This document shows positions 23,286 through 53,000 of a DNA stretch of 64,000 bases, piece after piece; within the stretch, counting starts at the first letter, position 1; every line of letters begins with the position of its first letter. A model generated the notes under the pieces. It worked only from the letters and a program-made list of their open reading frames with translations, searched no databases and was not told where the DNA came from. Both the position numbers and the translations under genes were made by a program. The DNA lies in the IMG/VR virus record IMGVR_UViG_3300035698_009252, positions 1-64,000 of that record. One strand, written 5' to 3'. The DNA comes from a virus.

Positions 23286-24500
23286 TTACTCCAACATCTG
23301 TATGTCCCGCTTATCGTCAAAGAACCGAGTCTCCGAGTCATCGAACTTGTCCATCGGAAAAGCACCCACTGCTCCGATTTTCACGTTGTCCCGGAAAAAC
23401 TCCATCGCCGCCTTGAACACGAAAAACTTCATTGTGTCCAACCCATCTCCGAGGGACACGATAAGCATAGAGTTTCCAGCCCTGGACGTGTGGGGTGTCA
23501 CCGCCTCTATCTGTCCGAACAAAAGCACCTTTCCCCGGTCGCCCATCCCGTGAATCGGCGTCCATTTCTTCTGTTTGATAAGCTTCTGGTGCTGCTTATA
23601 CAATGGCTCCCTGGACAGGCACAAGCCTATGGCTTCCTTCTCCAACTCCACCCACTTGTCATCCGTCCTCACGGGTGGCTCTCCATCCTTCTTGTTCTTC
23701 CTCACTCGAAAGTATTCAGCAATCACTTCGTTGCGCGTGCCGAATTTTACAAAAGCATCAGCAGCGATAAGAGAAAGCACTTGCCGCTTGTCCGGCCTAC
23801 GACTGGATTTCTTTCCGGTCTTCCCTATCGTTGTAACCTTCACCCGCTCGTGGAAGTCCTCTATGCTCTCGATTGGCTGGAAAGACTCGATGACGGCAGC
23901 CTTTGATGCCACAAACTTGATATGGCTCATGGAGAACCGGATAGCCCCATCCGCGTTCATAGTGAAGCCTTCGCGGCTCTTGTTGACATGCGGCCCAAGG
24001 ACCTCCACACCCCTGCGACGGGCATAATTGATGTAGTTCACCATGATATTGCTCGACCCGTGCTTTTTCTTACCAGGGTCGGTATTGCTGATAAGGGCAC
24101 ACATGTACTCGGGCAGGAAATTGTGTTTGAGCCACAACTGCGCCGTACTAACAGCACTATATGCTGTCGCATGGGATTTGTTAAAACCATACCCGGCAAA
24201 CGTCTCAAGCAGACTCCAAATCACCTCTACGTCCTTAAGGGTACACTCTCCGGCATCAATGTGGCCTTGTGCCCCCGAAATAAACTTTGGCTTCAAGGCC
24301 GCCATCTTCTCTGGAATCTTCTTCGCAATCGTCTTCACAAATTTGTAGGACTCGCCGGGACTGAACCCAGACAACTGCTGTGCAACCTGCATACAGTTGT
24401 GGACAACTACCCCGTTCGCGATGAAGTTATGGTGTTCTTCAACGGTGAGGTCGTACACAGGATGCTCACCGAGACAGTCAAATGAAACCAGTTTCGCCAT
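23286..24500 (-). CDS. dnaE: DNA polymerase III alpha, C-terminal half, preceded by split-intein C fragment, 404 aa
   Basis: Residues 1-35 are a C-terminal intein fragment (ending VYDLTVEEHHNFIANGVVV then HN), directly followed by Cys+1. From residue 36, CMQVAQQLSGFSPGES continues the polymerase exactly where the N half stops. GFNKSHATAYSAVSTAQLWL is the DnaE tail of the polymerase core, and VLLFGQIEAVTPHTSRAGNS the OB-fold. Trans-splicing with the product of 25446-28253 should restore one chain. The ATG overlaps the homing endonuclease stop (TAATG). The normal DnaE tau-binding C-terminus is short or absent. Confidence 0.9.
   Translation of the reverse strand: MAKLVSFDCLGEHPVYDLTVEEHHNFIANGVVVHNCMQVAQQLSGFSPGESYKFVKTIAKKIPEKMAALKPKFISGAQGHIDAGECTLKDVEVIWSLLETFAGYGFNKSHATAYSAVSTAQLWLKHNFLPEYMCALISNTDPGKKKHGSSNIMVNYINYARRRGVEVLGPHVNKSREGFTMNADGAIRFSMSHIKFVASKAAVIESFQPIESIEDFHERVKVTTIGKTGKKSSRRPDKRQVLSLIAADAFVKFGTRNEVIAEYFRVRKNKKDGEPPVRTDDKWVELEKEAIGLCLSREPLYKQHQKLIKQKKWTPIHGMGDRGKVLLFGQIEAVTPHTSRAGNSMLIVSLGDGLDTMKFFVFKAAMEFFRDNVKIGAVGAFPMDKFDDSETRFFDDKRDIQMLE
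24396..24500 (-). other. Intein C fragment (35 aa) of the dnaE split intein
   Basis: Contains intein blocks F and G: an Asp/Leu-rich strand, EEHHNFIANG, and the terminal Val-Val-His-Asn before Cys. The length is typical of natural split-intein C parts. Confidence 0.9.
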
Positions 24501-25396
24501 TATAAATCCCTAGCCAATTCCGCAGTTGAACCCATCAATACCTTCTCGATGTCGTCCACCACCTTGCCAATCCGAGCCATGATGTCGCTCTCCCAATACC
24601 TAATGACATTATACCCTGCCCTCCTGGCCAGAAGCGTGTAATTTGTGTCAATATGATATTGACGCTTCTGATTCGGAGTGAGGGCAAATTTCTTCGGATT
24701 TCCGTGCCAGTAGTCCCCATCCACTTCAACAACCAAGCGGCCATCAATCAAAAAATCATAACAGTGATTGCTAATCGAAATGTCGTTGAACTGTTCGTCA
24801 AAAGCAATGCCCCTCTTTTCTAGCCATTTCCTCATCCGAATCTCGGGTTTCGTGTTCTGTCCCGCCCCGATTCCCGCTTTCAGCCTCCTAATATTCCCAG
24901 CTCGGACACCAGTCTTGATGTCTTTCCTTGCCTTCTTATTCTCATCTGTGTTGATACACCATACTTGGTGCCTCTGAAGGCCCGCCAACCCTTTAAATTC
25001 TCTTCCACAATTATAACACCTCAGCAACAACCTATCGTGATGGCAATGAGCCTTGTGGGCGCGGAGTGACGTATTGCTCTCAAAATCTTCACCACACCTT
25101 TCGCACTCGAATACTCCCTGGACTCGGATGTTCTTTTGCCCCTCCGCTATCTTTTTTTTATGTTCTGCCGTGAACTTCCTTCCGAGATTGTGCCTTCTCC
25201 CACACTTGGGGCCACAATACTTCGTACCTATTTTCGTGCCGGAATTTTTCTTGATGTACGGCTTGCCGCATCCTTGGCAGACATACTCCCTTTTTACATC
25301 CCGGTATCGGTAAGAATTCGCACAAGCCCTTGAACAAAATCGGCTACCTCTCGCCCTTTGCTTCTCAGTCAGTGGCTTTCCACAAAAACAAGTCAT
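24500..25396 (-). CDS. Free-standing homing endonuclease: zinc fingers, NUMOD3-like motif and Vsr-like nuclease, 298 aa
   Basis: Lies exactly between the two dnaE halves. Residues 1-66 hold three cysteine knuckles (CFCG, CSRAC, CQGCG, YCGPKCG); 71-86 LGRKFTAEHKKKIAEG fits NUMOD3; 98-147 hold two C2H2-like fingers (FECERCGEDF ... HKAHC, CYNCGREFKGLAGL). Residues 195-298 are a Vsr/DUF559-type nuclease (MRKWLEKRGIAFDEQF, VVEVDGDYWHGN, GYNVIRYWESDI). It would cut intein-less dnaE and spread the insertion. Start at 25396 chosen because GGAGG is five bases upstream; the frame is open to 25423. Confidence 0.9.
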   Translation of the reverse strand: MTCFCGKPLTEKQRARGSRFCSRACANSYRYRDVKREYVCQGCGKPYIKKNSGTKIGTKYCGPKCGRRHNLGRKFTAEHKKKIAEGQKNIRVQGVFECERCGEDFESNTSLRAHKAHCHHDRLLLRCYNCGREFKGLAGLQRHQVWCINTDENKKARKDIKTGVRAGNIRRLKAGIGAGQNTKPEIRMRKWLEKRGIAFDEQFNDISISNHCYDFLIDGRLVVEVDGDYWHGNPKKFALTPNQKRQYHIDTNYTLLARRAGYNVIRYWESDIMARIGKVVDDIEKVLMGSTAELARDL

Positions 25397-25445
25397 AGCA
25401 TCCTCCACACTTGGTGTTATCACTTATGTAGAGAATATCAAACAA

Positions 25446-28253
25446 TTATGCCACTTCGTCGTAACCTATATCTTCAGTTGTAACAATATCATCTTCAGGT
25501 GTCAAGTATTGAGCCTCAACCCATCCTCGATTGTTGGTCATCAACAAATGGTCTTCCGTACATTTTAGGACAAACCCGTTATCAAGAGTCAGCCGATATA
25601 CATCCTTGATTCCATTCCTGTGCTTTGTAATTATCGCCCTCTCTACCACATCGCCCTTGTCATTCACGCACAAAACTGAATTTGAAGCATCATGTTCGAC
25701 AATGTCCCCAATCTTCACATATCCAGAAGGAGTCAAGACCCCAACGTCGGCAGGACAACACTGCTCTTGGTAGGTGATAACGCCATACGTGTCAGCCAGC
25801 AGATTCTTCAGGAACTCCGGCATGTTGTAGGGTTGCCCATGCTTGCGCTTGGCATACTCCATGTCCATCCCCATGTCACGAGGGCCAGGCCGGATAAGGG
25901 AAGTCAACGCGGACACATCACCCAACGTTTCAAGGCCAACTTCCGTAGCAACGGGCATCGTCGCCGGGTTCTCAAGCTGGAAAATGCCTACGAGGTCACT
26001 GTGGGCGCACTGCCGAATGGCTTGACGGTTGTCAATCGGCAAATCGGCTCGGGTAATCTTTCGCCCCCTGGTCTTCTCCACAAGTGCCACGCAATCACCA
26101 ATGACGGGCAGATTGTTCAGCCCAAGGATATCAAACTTAACAAGCCCAACCGCGCTGAGTTCCTCATTCTTGCCAGGAGCTTCGGCCCATGCCGAGATAA
26201 CCTTCCGGGTATCACTACCGGGCTTGTCATACAGAACGGGGATTCGGCCTTGCAAGTTCATATCCGAGATAATGACGCCGCCCGCGTGAGTGCTCATATT
26301 CTTGACCTGATTCCGCAAAACCCGTGCGTGCCGCAAGACGTCCTGATGTTTGTCGAGATACTCCTTCAAATCGGGATAGTGGTCAAACAGGTCCTCAAAA
26401 CTCATGTCGTCGACCTTGTGCTCCTGGCCCTCCTCGTCCTCAAACGTCTGCAAAGAATCAATCTTTTTAGTGATGGCCCGAACCTCGTGGATATCATAAC
26501 TAAGAGTGCGTGCCACATCAGCTATGACCGAGCTGGTGCGATACATCTGATACGAGCCAATAGAACATACCTTCTCTTCTCCGAACAGTTCCACGATATG
26601 CCTCTTGATGGCCTCCCGGTATCTCGGGTCGAAATCGTTGTCAATATCGGGTGGGTCAGGACGGTCAACTGACAGGAACCTCTCAAACAGGAGCCCATGG
26701 ACAAGCGGGTCCACGTCGGTGATGCCCAAGCAATAGCACACCACACTGCCAGCGCCACTCCCCCTTCCATAACCAATAACCCACTCTCCGTATGTGTCGC
26801 GAGCATCTGAGCAAATCTTTTCAGTGATAAGGAAGTAATCTGTCCATCCCAACTTGGTGATAACACCAAACTCGAACTTCAACCGGTCAATGTACGCTTG
26901 CGCATCAATCTTGACCTTGTTCCCACCCTGGTCAAGGTGAACCGTACCCTTTTCGAGCTTTCTCCATGCGAACCCCTCATTGACCCGCTTACGGAGTATT
27001 TGCTTGCCGTCCGGGTACAACGTAGGCAAATGAATCGTAGAATCTAGCTCAATCTGTTCAGTGGACATGGCAATCAATCGGGTGTTTTTGAGGGCTTCCT
27101 CAAACACGACTTCTGTGAACACGTCATCCAGGAATGGCTCCTTCTTCCCGCCACCCTTCTCCACAAATCCATTCTGGAACGTCCCACGCACTTGGTCAGC
27201 CCGACGATAGTACAAGTTGCCGACATCAAACTCCCAAATGTCATCCTGCTCCTTCTGGTCCATAATCGTTTTGTTTTGCCGGATGCACATCAGGATGTTG
27301 TGAGTCTCGTCGTGTTCGGGCTCAAGGTAATGGCTGTCGCAACCAATAACCAGGGGTGCCCCAACAGATTGAGCAAATTTGATGAGCCGCCGGTTGGCTT
27401 CCCTCTGAGCATCGTACTCAATAATCTGCACCTCAATATAGAATTGGTCAAAGTGCTTCGCGTAGAACTCATACAGCTCGCGAGCCTCTTTTTCCTTGTC
27501 CTCCATGAGTAGCTGGGGTATCTCCCCCTTCATACAGGCCGACGTTGCGATAATCCCCTTGCCCCACTTTTTGACCGCTTCTCGGTCCATCCGAGGACTG
27601 TAATAGAAGCCACTGAGCTGAGCGTCGTTGTGGATGCAAATGATGTTGTCAAAGCCCTGCCGGGTGTGTGCGATTAGAAGGAGGTGGTTCGCCTTGCGGT
27701 GTTTTTTCTTCTCATCGGGGTCATCACCCCTGTAGGGGGATACGTAAGCCTCCATCTCGAAGACGGCCTTGATTCCGGCGTCCTTGCACGCCCGGTACTG
27801 CTTAACCCATCCACCAACCGTCCCATGATTTGAAACACAACAAAATGAACGACGTTGCTTCTTCAACAACTCGACAAGATGGTTGACCGTCCCAAGGCCA
27901 TCCCGGATGCTAAACTCGTCGTGGTGATGAAGGCCCACAAATGAATCCGCTGTAGCCGTCAATGCCCTGTCCCGAAAAACATCGAACTCGACATCCATCT
28001 CCGCTGCCGGGAACTTACGAGTGATATTCTGGCCACACTGAAGCACAAACTTCGGTTTCATCTCGCATATCTCGGCGAACATATCGATAGATTCCTTGGG
28101 CCACGTCACGGCCACCTCAAACCGGGACAGCCCTAAACCGTTCAGAGCCGGTTCCACGTCATAGTCCGGGCCAGGAACCAGCAGTAAAACGTTCTTTTCC
28201 AATGGTATCCTGTCCTTAACGGGCACAGCGTATTTCTCGTAGAACTCTTCCAT
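25446..28253 (-). CDS. dnaE: DNA polymerase III alpha, N-terminal half, ending in split-intein N fragment, 935 aa
   Basis: Replicative polymerase half. Residues 1-110 are an extra N-terminal region. The PHP domain starts with FVGLHHHDEFSIRDGLGTVN and has SNHGTVGG and GCDSHYLEPEHDET. The palm has GYGRGSGAGS and PDPPDIDNDFDPRYREAI with catalytic acidic residues. The extein stops at YGVITYQEQ; from residue 832 a 104-residue intein N fragment starts CCPADVGVLTPSGYVKIGDI. ATG at 28253 overlaps the upstream TGA (TGATG). A TATAAT box lies 20 bases upstream. Confidence 0.93.
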   Translation of the reverse strand: MEEFYEKYAVPVKDRIPLEKNVLLLVPGPDYDVEPALNGLGLSRFEVAVTWPKESIDMFAEICEMKPKFVLQCGQNITRKFPAAEMDVEFDVFRDRALTATADSFVGLHHHDEFSIRDGLGTVNHLVELLKKQRRSFCCVSNHGTVGGWVKQYRACKDAGIKAVFEMEAYVSPYRGDDPDEKKKHRKANHLLLIAHTRQGFDNIICIHNDAQLSGFYYSPRMDREAVKKWGKGIIATSACMKGEIPQLLMEDKEKEARELYEFYAKHFDQFYIEVQIIEYDAQREANRRLIKFAQSVGAPLVIGCDSHYLEPEHDETHNILMCIRQNKTIMDQKEQDDIWEFDVGNLYYRRADQVRGTFQNGFVEKGGGKKEPFLDDVFTEVVFEEALKNTRLIAMSTEQIELDSTIHLPTLYPDGKQILRKRVNEGFAWRKLEKGTVHLDQGGNKVKIDAQAYIDRLKFEFGVITKLGWTDYFLITEKICSDARDTYGEWVIGYGRGSGAGSVVCYCLGITDVDPLVHGLLFERFLSVDRPDPPDIDNDFDPRYREAIKRHIVELFGEEKVCSIGSYQMYRTSSVIADVARTLSYDIHEVRAITKKIDSLQTFEDEEGQEHKVDDMSFEDLFDHYPDLKEYLDKHQDVLRHARVLRNQVKNMSTHAGGVIISDMNLQGRIPVLYDKPGSDTRKVISAWAEAPGKNEELSAVGLVKFDILGLNNLPVIGDCVALVEKTRGRKITRADLPIDNRQAIRQCAHSDLVGIFQLENPATMPVATEVGLETLGDVSALTSLIRPGPRDMGMDMEYAKRKHGQPYNMPEFLKNLLADTYGVITYQEQCCPADVGVLTPSGYVKIGDIVEHDASNSVLCVNDKGDVVERAIITKHRNGIKDVYRLTLDNGFVLKCTEDHLLMTNNRGWVEAQYLTPEDDIVTTEDIGYDEVA
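25449..25760 (-). other. Intein N fragment (104 aa) of the dnaE split intein
   Basis: Begins at the first of two Cys codons (25758-25760) after Tyr-Gln-Glu-Gln. Block A is CPADVGVLTPSGYVKIGDI, block B GFVLKCTEDHLLMT with the conserved Thr-x-x-His. The fragment ends in an acidic tail, which may help assembly with the C fragment. Confidence 0.9.
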
Positions 28254-28915
28254 CAAGTCACCTTGTATGCCCGATTATACCTCCACCGGAGGGGCAAGTG
28301 TCCTGGAAACTTCTCAAGAGGCACAGAAAACACCCAGTCATTGCCCGAAAATAGCTTGTAGAAACGCATGAAGGTTACAATCCGTGGGATATAATCTGTT
28401 GCCAACAACACGGCAATTTCGTCTTCTGGGCAACCCGTTTTCTCCTTAAAAGCGTCTGTATTCCCAAGTAACACCGGAACAGTTGTCATGGCGTACAATT
28501 TAGCCGAAAGAGGCTCGCACGGAAACATAGTGTCCACTTCGCCACATCTCAAGATAGCCACTGCCCCCGGCACCCATTTCGGAACCAACACCTGGCCATA
28601 AAAAGCGTTTTCGCATGGACATGACATCGTTTCATTCAGAACGGGGCTTCCGTGATGTAAGGCATCCGCCATCGTCCCAAAGGCATCATCCTTCAGCCGG
28701 TCATAAAATTCAATGCTCTCCCCTTCAACCTCTTCTGTGTTAGGAGAACAAGGGAACAGCCGATTTGGCTTGCCCCTGTTAACTTTCAAATTTGCCCTTA
28801 GCTCCTCACCCGTCGTCACCCATGGAAGGGCATAGACTTCGTTGTGATGATTGTCCCGACATACCTTAGCAATCTTCTCCGGCACCAAAGCATTCTTGCC
28901 ACAAATGACTATCAT
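28253..28915 (-). CDS. Hypothetical protein, 220 aa
   Basis: Not recognised. Starts MIVICGKNALVPEKIAKVCR, a strand-loop-helix as in nucleotide-binding or glycosyltransferase-like folds. Several cysteines are scattered (MSCPCENAFYG; TGCPEDEIAV). The ATG comes seven bases after a large hairpin and has no Shine-Dalgarno sequence, so translation may be leaderless or controlled by the hairpin. It is coupled to dnaE by TGATG. The extra N-terminal region of the polymerase half has a comparable style, but no homology is claimed. Confidence 0.65.
   Translation of the reverse strand: MIVICGKNALVPEKIAKVCRDNHHNEVYALPWVTTGEELRANLKVNRGKPNRLFPCSPNTEEVEGESIEFYDRLKDDAFGTMADALHHGSPVLNETMSCPCENAFYGQVLVPKWVPGAVAILRCGEVDTMFPCEPLSAKLYAMTTVPVLLGNTDAFKEKTGCPEDEIAVLLATDYIPRIVTFMRFYKLFSGNDWVFSVPLEKFPGHLPLRWRYNRAYKVT
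28274..28279 (-). promoter_or_regulatory. Candidate promoter box for dnaE N half
   Basis: Minus strand GGAGG-TATAAT-CGGGC within the 3' end of the upstream gene, 20 bases before the dnaE ATG. AAGGTGA follows as ribosome site. Confidence 0.45.
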
Positions 28916-32774: not shown

Positions 32775-33715
32775 ACCAACCGAGCAGCTTCTTTTAGCAG
32801 GCTTGCAAACCCCCACTCCAAAAAGAATGCCTTCAAAGCGTCCACGTCTTTCGGTGGACAACGGGGTTTGGGGACTTCGGGCAAGATGTCCATCTGCTTG
32901 AGAGACTTGGCCAACCGGAGCCGGGGTATCTGGTCGAGAAGCACTTGCTCCTTTTTGCCTCGTTTCGGCTTGCTTTCAATGAAGGCTATGATGGCGTCAA
33001 TGTCGCCGTGCTCCATTACGTACTGGCAAGCCGTTTTCGGTCCCCACCCGTCCACACCAAAGATGTTATCCTTGGAGGGGCCGATTTCACCCATAAGGGC
33101 ACCCGCATCCACCCATAAGTGAGGCGCAAAGCCGAACTCCAACTCAAAACGTTGATTGCTCCAAATCTCCTTTTTCATCGCGTCATAGACAATGGTGTTG
33201 GCATCCATAATCTGCATGAAGTCCTTGTCTGTAGACACAACCACGCTGTCAGCGTCCCAGTCGGCATACGTCCGGGCATACGTGTAGATGATATCGTCCG
33301 CCTCAGCACCCGGCACCGCCACCTCAAGGCAACGCACCAGTGGCAAGCCGTACAGAAGTTCCCGCATCTGTTCCCGGAAGCTAACCATATCAGGGTCGTC
33401 CTTCTTCTCTTCCTGGGCTTCCTTGCGGGGTTGCTTATACGACGATGGGATAAGCCCAGTCTCTACGGCAGCCTGGGATTCATTCAACCGCCGCTCGTAT
33501 CCACGGTCCCAACAAATGACCCGAAAGTGTTCCGGGTACTTCTTGTGAAGGTGAATGAGTTGCCGGAAGAACCCAAAAATCATATTCACCTCCTTGCCGT
33601 GATGAGACAAGGAAGCGACAGATGTTCCATCGGGCCTTCGTTTGCGACCGGCCCAGAAGACCCGATGGGCCATGTTGTTTCCGTCAATCAGTAGTAATTT
33701 GGGGCCATTAGGCAT
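32771..33715 (-). CDS. 5'-3' exonuclease / flap endonuclease, 314 aa
   Basis: FEN-family nuclease removing RNA primers and flaps. PKLLLIDGNNMAHRVFWAG supplies the first metal Asp; ICWDRGYERRLNES the arch region; VPGAEADDIIYTYAR and VVVSTDKDFMQIM the acidic clusters; IGPSKDNIFGVDGWGPKTAC the helix-hairpin-helix with Gly-x-Gly. Close to T5/T4-type phage enzymes in size. Overlaps the RecA-like gene end by 8 bases. Confidence 0.9.
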   Translation of the reverse strand: MPNGPKLLLIDGNNMAHRVFWAGRKRRPDGTSVASLSHHGKEVNMIFGFFRQLIHLHKKYPEHFRVICWDRGYERRLNESQAAVETGLIPSSYKQPRKEAQEEKKDDPDMVSFREQMRELLYGLPLVRCLEVAVPGAEADDIIYTYARTYADWDADSVVVSTDKDFMQIMDANTIVYDAMKKEIWSNQRFELEFGFAPHLWVDAGALMGEIGPSKDNIFGVDGWGPKTACQYVMEHGDIDAIIAFIESKPKRGKKEQVLLDQIPRLRLAKSLKQMDILPEVPKPRCPPKDVDALKAFFLEWGFASLLKEAARLV

Positions 33716-34868
33716 CTTGCACTTCCACTACTGCTGGTGTGTCGATGGCATCCTGGTCCACAGTATCCGCTACCGGCGTCCTTGTAGGCCGCTTGACTTC
33801 CTTGCCTGCGGTTTTCTTATTGTCGACCACCGTCGGGGCATCTTTCGCCCCGCCAGCCAACAGCGCCTTGTGAGCCTCCAAAGCCGTGCGAATCTTTTCT
33901 GTCATTTTCTCGTCCTGACGCATCATGTCCAGAACGTAAGCGCGGCCCTGTCCAAGCTGTTCGCCGTCATACGAGAACCACGAACCACGCCTCACAACCA
34001 AATCGTAAGAAATGGCGTCGTCGAGAATGGCCGCAACGGTATCAATTCCAATGCCATAGGTGATACAGAACTCTGCCACCCGGAACGGAGGGGCAACCTT
34101 GTTTTTCTTCACCTCGGCCTTGGTCTTGGAGGAAACAATAACGTCCCCTTCCTTGATAACCCCCGTGCGGACAAAACGGACACGAATGGAAGCATAATGC
34201 TTGAGAGCGTGACCCGCCGGAGTTGTCTCCGGGCTGCCCCACTTTACCCCAATCTTTTCACGGACCTGATTCGTCCAGATAATTGAGGCTTGGCGACGAC
34301 CGGCTTCCGTGGTCAACCTGCGAAGGGCTGCCGACATCATACGGGCTTGTGCACCCACCTGGACGTCACCAATATCACCTTCCAGCTCTTCCTTTGTGGT
34401 CAAGGCTGCCACCGAGTCGACAACCATAAGGCCCACGCCTTGCTTGACCAGCTTGTCAAGCACGTTCAGGGCCTGAACACCGTGTTCCGGCTGATTGACG
34501 ATAAGGAAGCGGGTATCCACACCGATTGCCTGGGCATACTCCTCGTCAAAGGCATACTCCGAGTCAATGAGCCCTACGTCCTCGTTAGGAAACAGCCGTT
34601 GGTGCCCGGCAATTGCATGCAAAGCTGCCGTGGTCTTGCCTCCCATTTCCGGCCCATAGAACTCAATAAATCGGCCTTTCGGCCATCCACCGCCCGTGGC
34701 ATCATCCAACTGGGGACAACCAGACGGCCATCGGGTAATAGACACGGTATCCCGCGACCCGAGCCATGTAACAGCGTTGTGGTCTTCCCCACCAAAGTCG
34801 CCGTTGTTTATCGCCCCACATATCCGGGAGATTCTTTCTTCTCGGGTTTCTTCTTTCTTCTTAGCCAT
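33708..34868 (-). CDS. RecA/UvsX-like recombinase, 386 aa
   Basis: Forms filaments on single-stranded DNA and pairs homologous strands. Walker A is GPEMGGKTT at 72-80 (bacterial RecA has GPESSGKTT), GLMVVDSVAAL is Walker B, and ASIIWTNQVREKIGVKWGSP corresponds to loop L1 and the following Asn-Gln region. The C-terminal 60 residues are Ala/Lys/Asp-rich and flexible. Terminator-like hairpin 34888-34909 lies in its leader, with the T-run 16 bases from the ATG, so expression may depend on read-through or a new promoter. Confidence 0.93.
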   Translation of the reverse strand: MAKKKEETREERISRICGAINNGDFGGEDHNAVTWLGSRDTVSITRWPSGCPQLDDATGGGWPKGRFIEFYGPEMGGKTTAALHAIAGHQRLFPNEDVGLIDSEYAFDEEYAQAIGVDTRFLIVNQPEHGVQALNVLDKLVKQGVGLMVVDSVAALTTKEELEGDIGDVQVGAQARMMSAALRRLTTEAGRRQASIIWTNQVREKIGVKWGSPETTPAGHALKHYASIRVRFVRTGVIKEGDVIVSSKTKAEVKKNKVAPPFRVAEFCITYGIGIDTVAAILDDAISYDLVVRRGSWFSYDGEQLGQGRAYVLDMMRQDEKMTEKIRTALEAHKALLAGGAKDAPTVVDNKKTAGKEVKRPTRTPVADTVDQDAIDTPAVVEVQDA

Positions 34869-34887
34869 AACAATTCCTTAAAAAGAA

Positions 34888-34909
34888 GGGGCAGCCCGAA
34901 GGCTGCCCC
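34888..34909 (-). terminator. Intrinsic terminator between SSB extension and recA-like gene
   Basis: Minus strand GGGGCAGCC-TTCG-GGCTGCCCC (9-bp stem, UUCG tetraloop) then TTCTTTTT. It starts four bases after the stop of the frameshift extension at 34914. Confidence 0.88.
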
Positions 34910-34913
34910 ATAG

Positions 34914-35120
34914 TCACAACAACTCCACTCCGGCCTTCTCTGCGCACTTCTCGCGCAATGGGCACTCCCTGCACTCCGAGTGTTCGGGCTGAATAGTGCC
35001 AAAACACATATAGTCTTCCGGTTTTGCCTTGGAGAAGTCATAGTCAGCGCCCGGCTTGGGTGTTGCCTTTGCCTCCTCCGTAGTCGACCTCCCCTCCGGC
35101 GCGGGAGAGGCCGGAATCAG
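34914..35120 (-). CDS. -1 frameshift extension of the SSB gene, zinc-finger-like, 68 aa
   Basis: Open frame in -1 relative to the SSB gene, entered at the A AAA AAC site that precedes the SSB stop. It starts Leu-Ile-Pro-Ala-Ser-Pro, continues as a flexible linker and ends with DYMCFGTIQPEHSECREC then PLREKC: C-x10-C-x2-C-x5-C. The only in-frame standard start is an ATG at 35009 inside the cysteine module, with no ribosome site, so an independent gene is unlikely. The fusion would be about 406 residues. The gene at 40835 begins with the same type of CFG cysteine module. Confidence 0.75.
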   Translation of the reverse strand: MIPASPAPEGRSTTEEAKATPKPGADYDFSKAKPEDYMCFGTIQPEHSECRECPLREKCAEKAGVELL

Positions 35121-35126
35121 TTTTTT
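35088..35126 (-). promoter_or_regulatory. Programmed -1 frameshift signal (slippery heptamer and stem-loop)
   Basis: Heptamer A AAA AAC at 35126-35120 is in the right phase (GAA AAA AAC TGA). Six bases further a 10-bp stem (35104-35113 with 35085-35094; eight Watson-Crick and two G-U pairs) with a 9-base loop follows. Spacer and stem fit known bacterial -1 sites. Confidence 0.78.
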
Positions 35127-36133
35127 TCCGGTCCCCCTTCGACCGGCGTGCGTGTTATCTTCTTGGCGGGTACTGTCCCGGCCAACAAGGAGTCGTCATC
35201 GACCTCATCCTCGGCGACGGCGGCCTTTACGGCTGCTTCCTCGGCATCTGTCGGGGCGGCATCTGCCGGAACGGCATCTACCGGGGCACTCACGGCTGCT
35301 GGTGCTGCGGCGGGTGCTTCCTCCTCCGGGGCCTCGTTGATTTCGAGCAGGTCCCTGTAGTCGGAATGTAAGGCGTCGATGATGCGGGACACCTCAACGT
35401 ACTTGCCGCAAATGACTTTCAGGTCATGCCGCGTGAGTTGCTTTTCCTCATCCGTGAGAGGCGTCACCTTCGCCGAAGGCGGCTTCGTGTTCTTGTCAAT
35501 CACGGCCTGCGCCGAGTACGCCGTACGCGTCCCGTTGTGGCCCTTATTGACACAGATGTCCAGCCCTTCCTCCACGTCGGAGATGTCAAAGCCCATCTGG
35601 TCAAAGATGCCTTCGATGTCGTCCCACGCTTCCATGCCAATGCTGGCAATCTTGAAGCCGAGCACTTTCTGCTCGTTGCCGTCTTCCACGGACAGGACAA
35701 ACGGGTCGTCCCGGTCGAGGATGTTCCACTTCAATTGCGTGCGGGCGTTGCAATCCCGACGCAGCTTCTCGAAGATTTTCTTCTCCTCTTCGGTGCATTC
35801 GTCCTTGAGGACCTCATGGGCAATCTTGTTGAGGCGGCAAATGGGGCATCCGCCGCGCTTGCCTTCCTCCGCCTGGATATCCCAATCCAAACAGTTGATT
35901 ACCTGGGGCATCTTGTCGCTGCCCGTAAATGCCACCGGCTGGCACAACCCCCGCTCTGACCGCTTGGGTGCCGGAGCGATGAAGTGTGTCTTGGTCTCAA
36001 GGAATTCTCCCGCCAGCCGGACGATATTCTCGCCGTCCTTCCAGGTGTGAAAAATACCCCTCAACCTGCTTCCGCCGCCGCCCTTTGGACGACTAGCCCT
36101 AAGTTTCCTGATTTTATCTACTGTCGTGCTCAT
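35117..36133 (-). CDS. gp32-like single-stranded DNA-binding protein, 338 aa (zero-frame product)
   Basis: Coats single-stranded DNA in replication. Start MSTTVDKIRKLRASRPKGGG has a basic arm; residues 30-220 are the OB-like core with GGCPICRLNKIAHEVLK, the zinc-binding part seen in T4 gp32-like proteins; residues 260-320 are an acidic Ala/Glu/Asp tail. Unlike most SSBs the acidic tail does not end the protein: a short basic end (VPAKKITRTPVEGGPEKN) contains the slippery site. GGAGG is nine bases before the ATG. Without frameshift it ends at 35117. Confidence 0.85.
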   Translation of the reverse strand: MSTTVDKIRKLRASRPKGGGGSRLRGIFHTWKDGENIVRLAGEFLETKTHFIAPAPKRSERGLCQPVAFTGSDKMPQVINCLDWDIQAEEGKRGGCPICRLNKIAHEVLKDECTEEEKKIFEKLRRDCNARTQLKWNILDRDDPFVLSVEDGNEQKVLGFKIASIGMEAWDDIEGIFDQMGFDISDVEEGLDICVNKGHNGTRTAYSAQAVIDKNTKPPSAKVTPLTDEEKQLTRHDLKVICGKYVEVSRIIDALHSDYRDLLEINEAPEEEAPAAAPAAVSAPVDAVPADAAPTDAEEAAVKAAVAEDEVDDDSLLAGTVPAKKITRTPVEGGPEKN

Positions 36134-36814: not shown

Positions 36815-37526
36815 TCTCTGCCTCCTTGCCTTCTGTTGCCCATTTTGCCGATTCACGCTCGAATGTTTCTATACGCCTTCTGAACTCACCCAATATTATA
36901 CGCTTGGAGCCGTACCCGGTGAGCAAGTTTTTTACCTCTTCGCGTTTTTTTTCGTTCCCGGCCTCTTTTGCCGTCCTCAAAAGGACACGTCCGCGACTAA
37001 TCAGAGCCATCCCCTCTTTGCGATTCAGCTCTTCGCGGTGCCGTTTCTTCATTTTGTCCCGGTTTGCAAACCTGAACTTTTCTATTACAAAATTGCTGCA
37101 CGCTTGCTTGATGTTCGGCGGACAGAACTTGGGATTTTCAATGTAAAAGTCCTCAAACGCCCACTCCAGGAACTCGTCAATGGTGAACCCATCAACCTCA
37201 AGACCCGCGACTGTCTGGTTTATCAACCGGCTATCGACAGGCGTAATGGAATGAACGTACTCGTAATCCGTAAACTGTAAATACCGGGACTTAAAGATGA
37301 CGATGAACCGTCGACGGTCCTTATCCGCCTTTTTCTTTGGAGAAATTTTGTGGGTCTCCTCAAAGACTTGCCGGTCACAAGCATCCGTCAGAAGCTCTAC
37401 GTAATGATAGATTTCCGGCACCTTGTCTATTCCCATCTGCCGAGCCAATATACAGACAGTTGTCTCGAACCCGCTAACGGGGCTCTCTGGTACCGGATTC
37501 CTCGTCTTGACATCTTTTTTGTTCAT
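36801..37526 (-). CDS. Hypothetical protein, 241 aa
   Basis: Not recognised. Residues 20-130 look like an alpha/beta or helical domain (GFETTVCILARQMGIDKVPE; FIVIFKSRYLQFTDYEYVHS). The last 90 residues are strongly basic and helical (KMKKRHREELNRKEGMALIS). It overlaps the neighbouring genes by 53 and 14 bases. No clear Shine-Dalgarno lies before the ATG at 37526. Possibly DNA-binding. Confidence 0.6.
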   Translation of the reverse strand: MNKKDVKTRNPVPESPVSGFETTVCILARQMGIDKVPEIYHYVELLTDACDRQVFEETHKISPKKKADKDRRRFIVIFKSRYLQFTDYEYVHSITPVDSRLINQTVAGLEVDGFTIDEFLEWAFEDFYIENPKFCPPNIKQACSNFVIEKFRFANRDKMKKRHREELNRKEGMALISRGRVLLRTAKEAGNEKKREEVKNLLTGYGSKRIILGEFRRRIETFERESAKWATEGKEAENDST

Positions 37527-39940: not shown

Positions 39941-40835
39941 TTACTCCTGCTCCCAATGTAGAGGTACTCACTAAAACATTCAGCCCCGATGTTCTATCGT
40001 TGAACGCATCTTCCATCTTCGCCCTGACTCCACTCTTGACTGATGCGTTATGAAATGCCGCCCGAATCCCAGCACCTCTCAGCTTTTTGACGATTGATGT
40101 TCCCGTTATCTTCGAGTGCACAAACACCAAGACCTTCCCCGACGACTCCCCAACCAAACGGACGGCCTCGTTTTCTTTTTCCTGATTGTCCCCCACAGGC
40201 AAATAGTCCACTTCTATCTTTGATGGCCTCCACGAACTCACGATACATTTGGTTTGCTTCCCGTTGAGAGTCTTCACCCATCGGGCCAACTCCATCGCGT
40301 TACCCATCGTTGCCGATAGCAAAACGAGCCGGACGGATGGGTTGATAGATGTAAGTCTCATCATTGACACCTCTACGGCCCCTCCCCTGCTCTTGTCATT
40401 CATCAAATGTGCCTCGTCATAGACAACACAAGACAGGCTTCTCATCCAACTCCGATAGGCCCTAGAACGGGTCTTCGCGTCGAAAGATTCACATGTCACA
40501 ACAGCGAGCCGTGCCGCTTCGTGGTCTTCCACCCCGGAACGCGAATCGGTAGACGACAGGACAACGCCATCGCCGTTAAGCTGTGGATTGTCCTTCCACT
40601 CCTGAAACTTCTCAGAGGCCAGACTTTTGAATGGGCACACGTAGGCAACCCGGCAATCCGCCCCCGTCTGGAGGTGAAAGCCGAAGCAACACTCCGCGAG
40701 CACAGTCTTCCCCGCCGCCGTAGCGAAGGACACAACGAGATTTACATCCTCATCCAAGAATGGCACAACCGCCTGTTGCGCCACGTTGTATTCTGCGAAG
40801 GGCGGCGTATAGTAAGAGAACGCCGTCGATTTCAT
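39930..40835 (-). CDS. SF2 (Ski2/Hel308-like) helicase, N-terminal half, 301 aa
   Basis: Contains motif I FATAAGKTVLAE at 37-48, Ia CPFKSLASEKF, II YDEAHLMND, III LLSATMGNA, IV KVLVFVHSK, and motif V LNVLVSTSTLGAGVNVG, immediately followed by a stop. RecA domain 1 is complete; domain 2 is cut before motif VI, which lies in the gene at 37946-38953. No intein sequence follows motif V. ATG overlaps the upstream TAA (TAATG). Alone it should not hydrolyse ATP well, since the arginine finger is in the other half. Confidence 0.85.
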   Translation of the reverse strand: MKSTAFSYYTPPFAEYNVAQQAVVPFLDEDVNLVVSFATAAGKTVLAECCFGFHLQTGADCRVAYVCPFKSLASEKFQEWKDNPQLNGDGVVLSSTDSRSGVEDHEAARLAVVTCESFDAKTRSRAYRSWMRSLSCVVYDEAHLMNDKSRGGAVEVSMMRLTSINPSVRLVLLSATMGNAMELARWVKTLNGKQTKCIVSSWRPSKIEVDYLPVGDNQEKENEAVRLVGESSGKVLVFVHSKITGTSIVKKLRGAGIRAAFHNASVKSGVRAKMEDAFNDRTSGLNVLVSTSTLGAGVNVG

Positions 40836-41260
40836 TACGATAGAGCCGCGAGAACCTCCTCCGCCTGCTCCACAGACTCGATGGAATCAAAGATTCTCTC
40901 GTAGTCCTTTGCCTCGATTTTCACGCGCCCGGTAGCGTTAGACTCCGTCACGAGCACCATCGTCTTGCCGTCTTTGACGAAGAAGTACCCAACGGCCTGC
41001 TTCCCGACTCTATCGGAACGGTCATACTTGCCCTCAAGGCTCTTAAGCAAATGCTTCAACGGCGAAATGGGCTCTTGTTCCTCCGTCCCGGCAGGTTGGG
41101 AATCCGCAGCACTTACAGGCTCTTCTGCGACAGACTCTCCACTCTCGCGTCTACCTGTAGAACGTTCGCATTCTTTCCTGATGTAACACCCCGCGCATTC
41201 CGGCGCAGACATGTCCCACATAACCCCGAAACAATCGGGCTGTTTACCTGCTGTTTCCAT
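40835..41260 (-). CDS. Protein with N-terminal CFG cysteine module, 141 aa
   Basis: Residues 9-31 (PDCFGVMWDMSAPECAGC then YIRKEC) form C-x11-C-x2-C-x5-C, the same module type as the SSB frameshift extension. A Pro/Glu-rich linker follows (residues 35-65), then a compact domain ending FDSIESVEQAEEVLAALS. Function unknown. AGGAGGAG precedes the ATG. The context, sigma factor upstream and helicase downstream, suggests DNA metabolism. Confidence 0.6.
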   Translation of the reverse strand: METAGKQPDCFGVMWDMSAPECAGCYIRKECERSTGRRESGESVAEEPVSAADSQPAGTEEQEPISPLKHLLKSLEGKYDRSDRVGKQAVGYFFVKDGKTMVLVTESNATGRVKIEAKDYERIFDSIESVEQAEEVLAALS

Positions 41261-41269
41261 ATCTCCTCC

Positions 41270-41995
41270 TTATCTGAACCTCTTCTGCATGAACGGCTGT
41301 ACCTTCTGGTGATAGAAGTTCATTGCCGTACCCCTTCCGACTTCCGAGACCAACGCTGCATGCGCTACGCAAACCCCACCCGGTATTGTCTTATCCTCCG
41401 GGTTGCCGAGTAAAGCATATACGAACGTTTTCCACTCCGGGTATTTCTCCCCCAACTCTCGTACGGCATCGGCAAACTCGCACGACAAGATAGCCCCGTA
41501 ATGAGTCTCCTCCGCTGGCTTGCGCTCCATATCCTCATCAGGATGGGAAACCAAATGGCTCGTAAGCTTCTGCGAACGCCGGTATTCCCTGTTGAGGACG
41601 TTGGAACAAAGACGCCACGCCCAGGTCGAGAACTTAGCCCTCTTGGAATCGTAGGTGTGCAGCTTCTTCCAAATCCGCTGGAAGCACTCCTGTGCCAAGT
41701 CCTCTTGATGCTCGATACAGGTTGTGGAGTACCGCGACGCCAACATCCCGACCATGCGTTCGATAGACTTGCAGAGTGCATCCGCGAAGTATTGCCTTGC
41801 GGGGTGAGGGGGAGCCTCCCCATTACGCTCTGCCACGATGGCAGAGACCATGAACTCTTGTGTGACGGGGAATCGAGTCCCGGCTTCCGGGCAATCGCCC
41901 AGTGAGAACTCCTGGAGACGAATGTCATCCAGCCATGTTTCCAGAATCTCATTTGCTTCTTCTGTGAAGCTGCATACGGTGCCTTTACGCTCCAT
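41270..41995 (-). CDS. Phage RNA polymerase sigma factor-like protein, 241 aa
   Basis: Residues 83-140 match sigma region 2: HQEDLAQECFQRIWKKLHTY, then KFSTWAWRLCSNVLNREYRR, the part that binds core polymerase and reads the -10 box. Residues 175-240 are compatible with a weak region 4 (FADAVRELGEKYPEWKTFVY; AALVSEVGRGTAMNF). Phages use such factors to redirect host polymerase. The leader carries bipartite element E and two palindromes, pointing to self- or cross-regulation. GGAGG is seven bases upstream of the ATG. Confidence 0.82.
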   Translation of the reverse strand: MERKGTVCSFTEEANEILETWLDDIRLQEFSLGDCPEAGTRFPVTQEFMVSAIVAERNGEAPPHPARQYFADALCKSIERMVGMLASRYSTTCIEHQEDLAQECFQRIWKKLHTYDSKRAKFSTWAWRLCSNVLNREYRRSQKLTSHLVSHPDEDMERKPAEETHYGAILSCEFADAVRELGEKYPEWKTFVYALLGNPEDKTIPGGVCVAHAALVSEVGRGTAMNFYHQKVQPFMQKRFR

Positions 41996-50085: not shown

Positions 50086-53000
50086 ACGTCCTTCCCAAGT
50101 ACCTGTACTTCTTTAGTACCACCCGATCCATCTGGCACTTCTATAGTCATAATAGCCCAAGAATCATCGTTCACGAATATTCCGCCTTCAAATAGGTTGC
50201 CTTCATCTTGTCCAACATTGCCGTGAATGTTGTACGTCTCCCCCGGACTGGCAACATCAATAGTCCCGTCCGCAATGAGTACATCGCCTGTTGCGTAAAC
50301 AGCGTAAGTGCCATCACATAACCCGACACTTTCCCCTGCGCTGATAAAATATCCCGCGTAACCCGAGCCCCCTAACGCGGCATTGTTGGTGCCACTGACG
50401 AAAAACCCAGCATCGCTCCCGTTTGCTAACGCGGCTGTTTGAGCACCATCGTCAAAATAGCCAGCCTGAGTTGCTCCCCCTTTGTCTGCATACACGCCAT
50501 GTAGAGCGTAAATGCCACCCGTAGTGCTAATGGCTGTGAGCGAGGGATTCTCTATCTCCAGTGTTCCGGTTGTCTTGTAATCGTAAGCGTTCGTACCGCC
50601 GTGAGTAGTGTTGAACCAATACCTAACATCGTGGTCTGGGTTAACCCCGCTAGTATCCCGTGGACTTCCCGCCGAAACGAAGTCTAGTAGGTTATGCTTA
50701 AAATTGTCATCCCCAATAATGTCATTCCAATCACAATCCAAAGCCAGAAGATCAGCACAGGTAACCTTGGGGCACAAGGCGGGCACGTCTCCCGGTAGTA
50801 CATAAGCAATACTGGATAAATCAAGATACTCCAAATCGTGCTTCTGTGAGCTTACCTGTTGACGTACCAATACAAGGTACTTTCCGTCAGCGGTACCTGA
50901 ACCAGAAAAATCAGTTGGCGTATCATCTGCCGTAGTTGTAATGAAATTGTAGAGTCGTAGCTTTGACTGTCCTATCTCGATAGACCTAGATGTAGTAGTC
51001 CACGAACCAGCATCATTAGAATCAATCCGCGCATACGCCTTCGGAGTAACGCCACCTGTACTATAATGGTAATAGGGTATGGCATAATCATTTGCGTACC
51101 TAGTAATCGAATTACTCACTATCAGAGACTCGTATGCACCCGCGTCCTGTAACGCTCCCTCGTTGCGCGAAGCTGCATCAGTAATAAAGTCTAGGCCCTC
51201 TATCCTTTGTATTTCCAAATCTATGTTAGCTATGCCTGACGCCTTACCGTCGGGTCTTACAAAGTCATGGCGAATCTCACCGCCCTTCCAGTACGGCTGA
51301 AACTGTACACAATCCATCGTATTGCCGCCGTCACCAACGGCCTGCCTTTGCACGTCAAACTTGAATAGCTTATGGTATACCAACCCATAGTAATCGGTAA
51401 CCGGGGTGTCGTCCCAATCTTCATGGTCCCATGTGAGTTCATTCACAACCCTGCACGCTACAGGCTCAAGCGACGGGTCATAAGTCATTGATGCTATATC
51501 GGCTGTGTCCGGGGCAATCGTAACGTATACTTCATCATACCCCGCATCGTAATCTGTGTAATCTGTAGTAAACAATGGCGATGATGTAAGGTGCACGTCT
51601 CGCTGTTGCCAATGGCCTTCATGGACATACAGTATTGCCGCCATTGTCGCATGACTGGTTAAAGGCCCATCGGAATCGTAACTAACAACCGTGTGGAAAT
51701 CCAACGCTGTATCAACAATCCCGTAAATAGGATTTATGTCATGGAACATACCATTCTGGTGTTGCGTGACTCCAGTAATCTCGCCCGTGTCATACGCGAT
51801 AGTAGCGATATGTCGAAGCTGCCCAAACGAGTCTGCCTTAAAACCTGTGCCCAGTACGAAACCCCTGCCAAGCATTACCTTGCTATATAGAATCTCGACA
51901 CCGTTTGTGCCGTCACCGCCCTCATCGTAGTCTGTCGATTCGTTGGAGATATCCAGCCAAGCCGAGGTACGCTGGTTCACCCCGTCACTATTCATAAGCA
52001 CGGCATAGACTTCGAGGTTGCCCGTGTAGTCTGATGCAATACTTCCCGCTCCTACTGGGTCGTACTCGTAATCGTATTTCTCTCCGTTGCCACTCATCCT
52101 CCCATTACGAACCCATATGCCCGGACGCACTGTGAACTTTTCTGCGTCGATTGTGCTCTCCTCGACATCCCACATCCGGTCGTTCCCACCCTGGAAGCCC
52201 TGGAGACCCTGGAAGCCCTGGAGACCCTGAAAGCCCTGGAAGCCCTGGAAGCCCTGAAAGCCCTGAGAGCCCCGAAAACCCTGGAAACCCCGATTCCCTT
52301 GGAAACCCTGGAAACCCTGGAGACCATCATTCCCTCCCGAACCCTGGAAACCCTGCAAGCCCTGCAAGCCCTGCAAGCCCTGCAAGCCCTGGAAACCCTG
52401 GAAACCCTGGAAGCCCCGATTCCCTTGGAAACCTTGGAAACCTTGTATGCCTTGAGGCCCTTGAGGTCCTTGGAAACCCTGAGAACCCCGACCCTGAAAA
52501 CCTTGGAAGCCCTGGAATCCCTGGAAGCCCTGGAGACCCTGAAAGCCCTGGAAACCCCGATTCCCTTGGAAACCCCGATTCCCTTGGAAACCCTGGAAAC
52601 CTTGGGGACCCCGCAAGCCCTGGAAACCCTGCAAGCCCTGGAAACCTTGGGGACCTTGCAAGCCCTGCAAGCCCTGGAAACCCTGGAAGCCCTGGAAACC
52701 CTGGAAACCCTGGAAACCTTGGGGACCTTGCAAGCCCTGGAAACCCTGGAAACCATCATTCCCTTGTATGCCTTGAGGCCCTTGAGGTCCTTGGAAACCT
52801 TGAGGCCCTTTAGGCCCTTGAGGCCCCTGGAAACCCTGGAAACCCCGTGGCCCAGGCGGTCCCGGCCCCCCTCCCCCGCTCTCATACCACCCATCTGTTA
52901 TCAGGCCAGGAAGGTCACCAACTTCGGGAGTCTCGAAGTTAGTGATTATTACCGGGCGAGTGAAAATAGGGACAATGTCGAACTGGGGGTCATTGAACTG

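Follow-up and report, generated by a model that had tools for sequence, protein, structure and literature searches.

Analysis of a 64,000-nucleotide stretch of viral DNA (the window; positions 1 to 64,000 of the 139,603-base IMG/VR virus record IMGVR_UViG_3300035698_009252) indicates that a phage very probably makes two forms of its single-stranded-DNA-binding protein (SSB) from one gene by a -1 slip, the longer form carrying a tail that is probably a docking module. Judging from the comparison of related loci, a frameshift-made cysteine tail on this phage SSB is almost certainly real. The SSB locus occupies positions 36133-34914 of the minus strand and its features are listed below.

35117..36133, minus strand: zero-frame gene for a gp32-like SSB of 338 amino acids (PHROG match and AF2 model of the homologue L027)
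35120..35126, minus strand: slippery heptamer A_AAA_AAC, in phase, within an A7 run at 35121-35127; zero-frame codons AAA AAC
35117..35119, minus strand: zero-frame stop TGA, immediately 3' of the heptamer
34914..35120, minus strand: -1 frame tail of 68 codons plus stop, a linker followed by C-x10-C-x2-C-x5-C (CFGTIQPEHSECRECPLREKC)
35085..35113, minus strand: putative stimulatory hairpin with a 10-bp stem and a loop of 9 nt, separated by 6 nt from the heptamer upstream of it
34883..34909, minus strand: terminator-like hairpin GGGGCAGCC TTCG GGCTGCCCC with a T-rich tail, which closes the gene; a similar hairpin is found in the relative L002

The zero-frame open reading frame (ORF), 36133-35117, terminates in CCG GAA AAA AAC TGA on the minus strand. 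An earlier sequence-only reading had described this gene end with its in-phase heptamer, the stem and loop six bases downstream, the 68-codon -1 frame with its linker and four cysteines, and the end of that frame four bases before a terminator; all of these were found again at the same coordinates. The hairpin arms lie at 35113-35104 and 35094-35085 and form ten pairs, including two G-U pairs. Translation of the -1 frame from 35120 to 34914 gives LIPASPAPEGRSTTEEAKATPKPGADYDFSKAKPEDYMCFGTIQPEHSECRECPLREKCAEKAGVELL, with TGA at 34916-34914; on its upstream side the frame stays open for no more than 76 nt ahead of the zero-frame stop. The tail had also been called a zinc finger; the four-cysteine module is indeed present, but any metal it binds need not be zinc; zinc and an iron-sulphur cluster are both candidates. 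WhiB and AddB-type clusters have the same C-x2-C-x5-C spacing.

In the proposed mechanism most ribosomes would read to the TGA and yield the 338-amino-acid SSB with an acidic terminal region. Aided by the hairpin 6 nt further on, a fraction of ribosomes would slip one base back on A_AAA_AAC, and these would append a 68-amino-acid tail ending in the four-cysteine (zinc or iron-sulphur type) module. In an insertion sequence element, the heptamer A_AAA_AAC has been proven to act as a -1 motif (PMC4066793). The tail would most likely be a docking module for the sub-population of SSB molecules that carries it. As a best guess, it would hold the late-expression or replication machinery at SSB-coated DNA, because the same module also heads a gp27-like regulator in the same genomes, encoded beside a sigma gene in the window.

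Analysis of the zero-frame protein revealed a match to phrog_1192 (single strand DNA binding protein) with an E value of 3e-10. The core of the AF2 model of the in-frame homologue L027 has pLDDT values mostly above 90, and a PDB search with this model gave five matches at E<=0.001, all of them gp32 of T4 or RB69. On the strength of this model, we identify the zero-frame protein as a gp32-like SSB with the gp32 core fold. Four cysteines of the core (C64, C81, C96 and C99) are invariant in 14 family members, and we take them to recall the zinc site of gp32. The acidic C-terminal region of the window SSB reads AEDEVDDDSLL and the protein then ends in PEKN before the stop.

Relatives in IMG/VR were sought with the SSB (which found L002, 71%), then with the RecA neighbour and then with SSB profiles; identical loci from different IMG samples (L016=L019, L017=L018 and L026=L030) were counted once. 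A total of 15 distinct SSBs of the tailed family were identified, a lower bound as the scans targeted short conserved peptides. Eleven are of the frameshift type (window, L002, L014, L015, L016=L019, L017=L018, L032, L034, L035, L036 and L037) and four are of the in-frame type (L026=L030, L027, L029 and L031). The SSBs of the tailed phages diverge down to 40-50% identity. The sequence-only reading had asked whether slippery site and extension recur in homologous genes, and its programmed -1 frameshift is supported by this comparison: the SSB, an A7-A10 run, a zero-frame stop and a -1-frame cysteine tail were present in all 11 frameshift-type members. The stop lies directly after the slip codons in nine of the 11 and one codon later in L014 and L035. 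L002 has the identical GAA AAA AAC TGA, so that A_AAA_AAC itself occurs in the window and L002, and A_AAA_AAN occurs in all 11 (any run of at least eight A's has one in phase). In each of the nine loci with A9 or A10, the slip site holds the sole run of nine or more A's within 4.6-9.1 kb. In the in-frame type (4/4), SSB and tail share one frame and the gene has no run of seven or more A's. Fusion of the tail in these four members shows that the tail belongs to the SSB. In the SSB tree, for which no root was inferred, L026, L029 and L031 are set apart from the frameshift side by a 100/100 branch and the in-frame L027 is nested on the frameshift side with support 82/76. The position of L027 requires at least two changes of state, one of which, on the sequences, appears to have exchanged one arrangement, frameshift or fusion, for the other.

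Comparison of the tails shows that they are under purifying selection. The ratio of nonsynonymous to synonymous substitution rates (dN/dS) in the -1 frame was 0.16-0.35 for the sister pairs where dS could be calculated, and 38 of 62 aligned residues are identical between the window and L002. All 15 tails share Cys39, Glu49, Cys50, Cys53 and Cys59 (window tail numbering), with the residues CFG in most of them. L035 (4972-5649) differs in that its -1 extension has 225 codons, with a Pfam double zinc ribbon (E 1e-11) followed by the shared cysteine module at the end.

Analysis of the RNA downstream of the slip site revealed that the following 60 nt are more stable than 98% of windows from the same genes. 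In the family as a whole, the 60 nt that follow the stop exceed other windows of the same genes in stability (Fisher p 9e-8, and 2e-5 when each lineage contributes one member). The L002 stem likewise has 10 bp and begins at the 6-nt distance. Its hairpin differs from that of the window in four pairs, all of which remain standard pairs; as every change affects one side of a pair only, none is fully compensatory. In members other than these two, the downstream structure is mostly 13-24 nt away, compared with the spacing of about 5-9 nt looked for in a programmed -1 site of the X_XXY_YYZ type.

Several results weigh against the two-product model. The -1 product is a prediction from sequence. The window hairpin is not more stable than its dinucleotide shuffles (z -0.84); the same test gave z -2.4 to -5.0 in L002, L014, L015, L016, L032, L034 and L036 for at least one of two window lengths. 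Downstream structure was absent in L035 and L037 in the 60-nt stability test, and an upstream Shine-Dalgarno (SD)-like stimulator of the dnaX type, which is optional, was strong only in the window (family-wide p 0.34). The link to the second protein described below runs through a short module of about 30 amino acids. A tblastn search of INPHARED with four SSBs found no cultured phage with a tailed SSB, and a GTDB search of bacterial genomes found no tailed-SSB relatives. Of the further searches, a DNA pattern scan with AAAAAACTGA plus TGYTTYGG gave the contig of L002 as its sole true case, and the RecA neighbourhoods of isolate phages did not share synteny with the SSB-RecA locus. Frameshifting in a phage SSB was not reported in the open-access papers searched.

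The alternative that survives best is transcriptional slippage, in which RNA polymerase adds one A within the run and standard translation then yields the tailed SSB; for the family we regard it as possible though doubtful. It is favoured by the A9 or A10 run at the corresponding place in nine of the 11 members. In bacteria such slippage is efficient on nine A's or T's, and Thermus dnaX makes use of it (PMC5009743). A run of at least nine A's or T's, taken as the criterion for productive slippage, is found in these nine relatives and not in the window, since the window and L002 have only A7, with a hairpin at the classic 6-nt spacing. Furthermore, most A9 members also show an enrichment of RNA structure beyond the run, which slippage of the polymerase would not be expected to need. 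Overall, ribosomal -1 frameshifting is the most likely route in the window, with its A7 run and hairpin, and in the A9-A10 members some or all of the -1 product may be due to the insertion of one more A by RNA polymerase.

Production of the tail as a separate small protein, from an internal start in the -1 frame or by reinitiation after the stop, is very unlikely. The sequence-only reading held that this frame has no usable start; an ATG is in fact present right before the first cysteine (tail codon 38), with a weak SD (-3.5 kcal), and the L002 ATG is preceded by a good SD (GGAGG). A start at this place is however not conserved: L014 and L017 have no ATG, GTG or TTG before the motif, and other starts occur at unrelated positions. 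The linker upstream of the ATG is also conserved between the window and L002, and the in-frame fusions show the tail working as part of the SSB. Comparison with the relatives led us to reject the separate ORF, and likewise a sequencing or assembly error, in which the true run would have eight A's and SSB and tail would form one ordinary ORF. One base would suffice for such an error and four relatives are in-frame fusions, yet 11 distinct viruses share the position of the frame break, the stops directly after the run differ (TGA, TAA and TAG), two members were found identically in two IMG/VR samples each, and the in-frame members have no A-run at all. The error, which the sequence-only reading had named as a possible refutation, was not upheld and is, with chance, effectively excluded by the sequence comparison. 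Chance, meaning a random heptamer beside an unrelated or decayed frame, is the least probable of all: the window minus strand has two other A8 runs inside coding frames (36945-36952 and 25152-25159), so the heptamer alone is unremarkable, but the recurrence of slip site, frame and tail in 10 distinct relatives, with purifying selection on the tail, is more than chance and refutes it.

The neighbouring genes that bear on the function of the tail are as follows.

33708..34868, minus strand: RecA, the downstream neighbour, kept beside the SSB in relatives (Pfam RecA, E 4e-80)
40835..41260, minus strand: second protein with the cysteine module, at its N-terminus; gp27-like (phrog_13400, E 1e-3, over the module only)
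41270..41995, minus strand: sigma-factor-like gene, immediately preceding the gp27-like gene (Pfam Sigma70_r2, E 2e-12)

A profile of the tails identified a second protein with the cysteine module in the genome of the window and in all seven relatives tested. In the window, and likewise in L068, L069, L070, L071, L072 and L073, this N-terminal copy belongs to a small protein encoded some 6 kb away from the SSB. Searched against SPO1, the tail profile matched gp27 (E 1.7e-7), which is annotated 'regulation and/or late gene expression'. SPO1 gp27 lies directly behind the gp28 sigma gene and belongs to phrog_13400 (E 1e-80), a family that is matched by eight of the 15 SSB tails. The SSB tail has the module only and thus falls outside the gp27 family, which combines an N-terminal CFG-Cys module with the gp27 C-terminal part. 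The tail gave no structure match in the PDB, and its match to WhiB in Pfam was insignificant (E 0.56). A third match to the module within one genome was seen in L074 (G007:19500-20500) at 414-539, in a 41-codon stop-to-stop frame that looks stand-alone and has no clear start codon.

From these shared sequences we infer that the module binds a common partner in the SSB tail and in the gp27-like protein. A more specific proposal, which we put forward tentatively and consider rather unlikely as it stands, is that recoding gives a fixed fraction of SSB a zinc or iron-sulphur docking module, one also carried by a gp27-type late regulator, that physically couples SSB-coated replicated DNA to late transcription. 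If true, this would be a replication-transcription coupler of a bacterial virus with its dose set by the frameshift ratio. A module common to the SSB tail and a sigma-linked regulator makes the tie of phage late transcription to replication, an old question, testable. The in-frame fusions in related phages constitute a natural experiment on the importance of the ratio of the two forms. The SSB tail would be overlooked by automated annotation in which ORFs are called frame by frame.

Other observations were made in the window. DNA polymerase III alpha (23286-28256, minus strand) is seemingly split, as judged by eye from the ORF list, into an N-terminal ORF running into intein-like sequence, an endonuclease-like ORF and then the rest of the polymerase. 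A long collagen-like G-F-Q/G-P-Q repeat, open in several frames, was found at 52094-52894 in a 1174-amino-acid tail-fibre-like protein. Nothing obvious was seen in the window of a tail-assembly-chaperone frameshift before the tape measure gene.

Comparison with known systems places the SSB tail among several partial parallels. To our knowledge, gp32 has no frameshift extension; T4 gp32 and the SPO1-type phage SSB (phrog_1192) share the gp32 fold and the acidic C-terminal region, and the SPO1 SSB differs from the tailed SSBs in having no A-run next to its stop and no cysteine tail in its other frames. SPO1 gp27 (phrog_13400) shares the CFG-Cys module, and its gene follows a sigma gene in SPO1 as in the window, but its module is N-terminal and the rest of gp27 is unrelated to SSB. 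The iron-sulphur motifs of the WhiB and AddB-Cas4 type (C..C-x2-C-x5-C) are alike in the C-x2-C-x5-C spacing, with no further homology. Bacterial dnaX (A_AAA_AAG plus hairpin, giving gamma and tau) also combines an A-rich heptamer and a close 3' hairpin in the gene of a replication protein, and in some bacteria the longer dnaX form is the frameshift product, with a stop directly after the shift site (PMC5009743). Here, in contrast, the protein is a gp32-like SSB with a cysteine-module tail, and the family has no significant upstream SD-like stimulator. Transcriptional slippage in Thermus thermophilus dnaX resembles the A9 runs of nine relatives, whereas the window and L002 have A7 plus a hairpin. 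The Ig-like domains on phage capsid and tail proteins and the gpG-GT tail chaperones are alike in that a frameshift equips a minority of the molecules with a C-terminal module, and among their relatives direct fusion or frameshift also varies (PMC5009743). Known phage frameshifts mostly tune such virion assembly proteins; here the frameshift would instead add a small four-cysteine unit to a protein at the hub of DNA replication and recombination.
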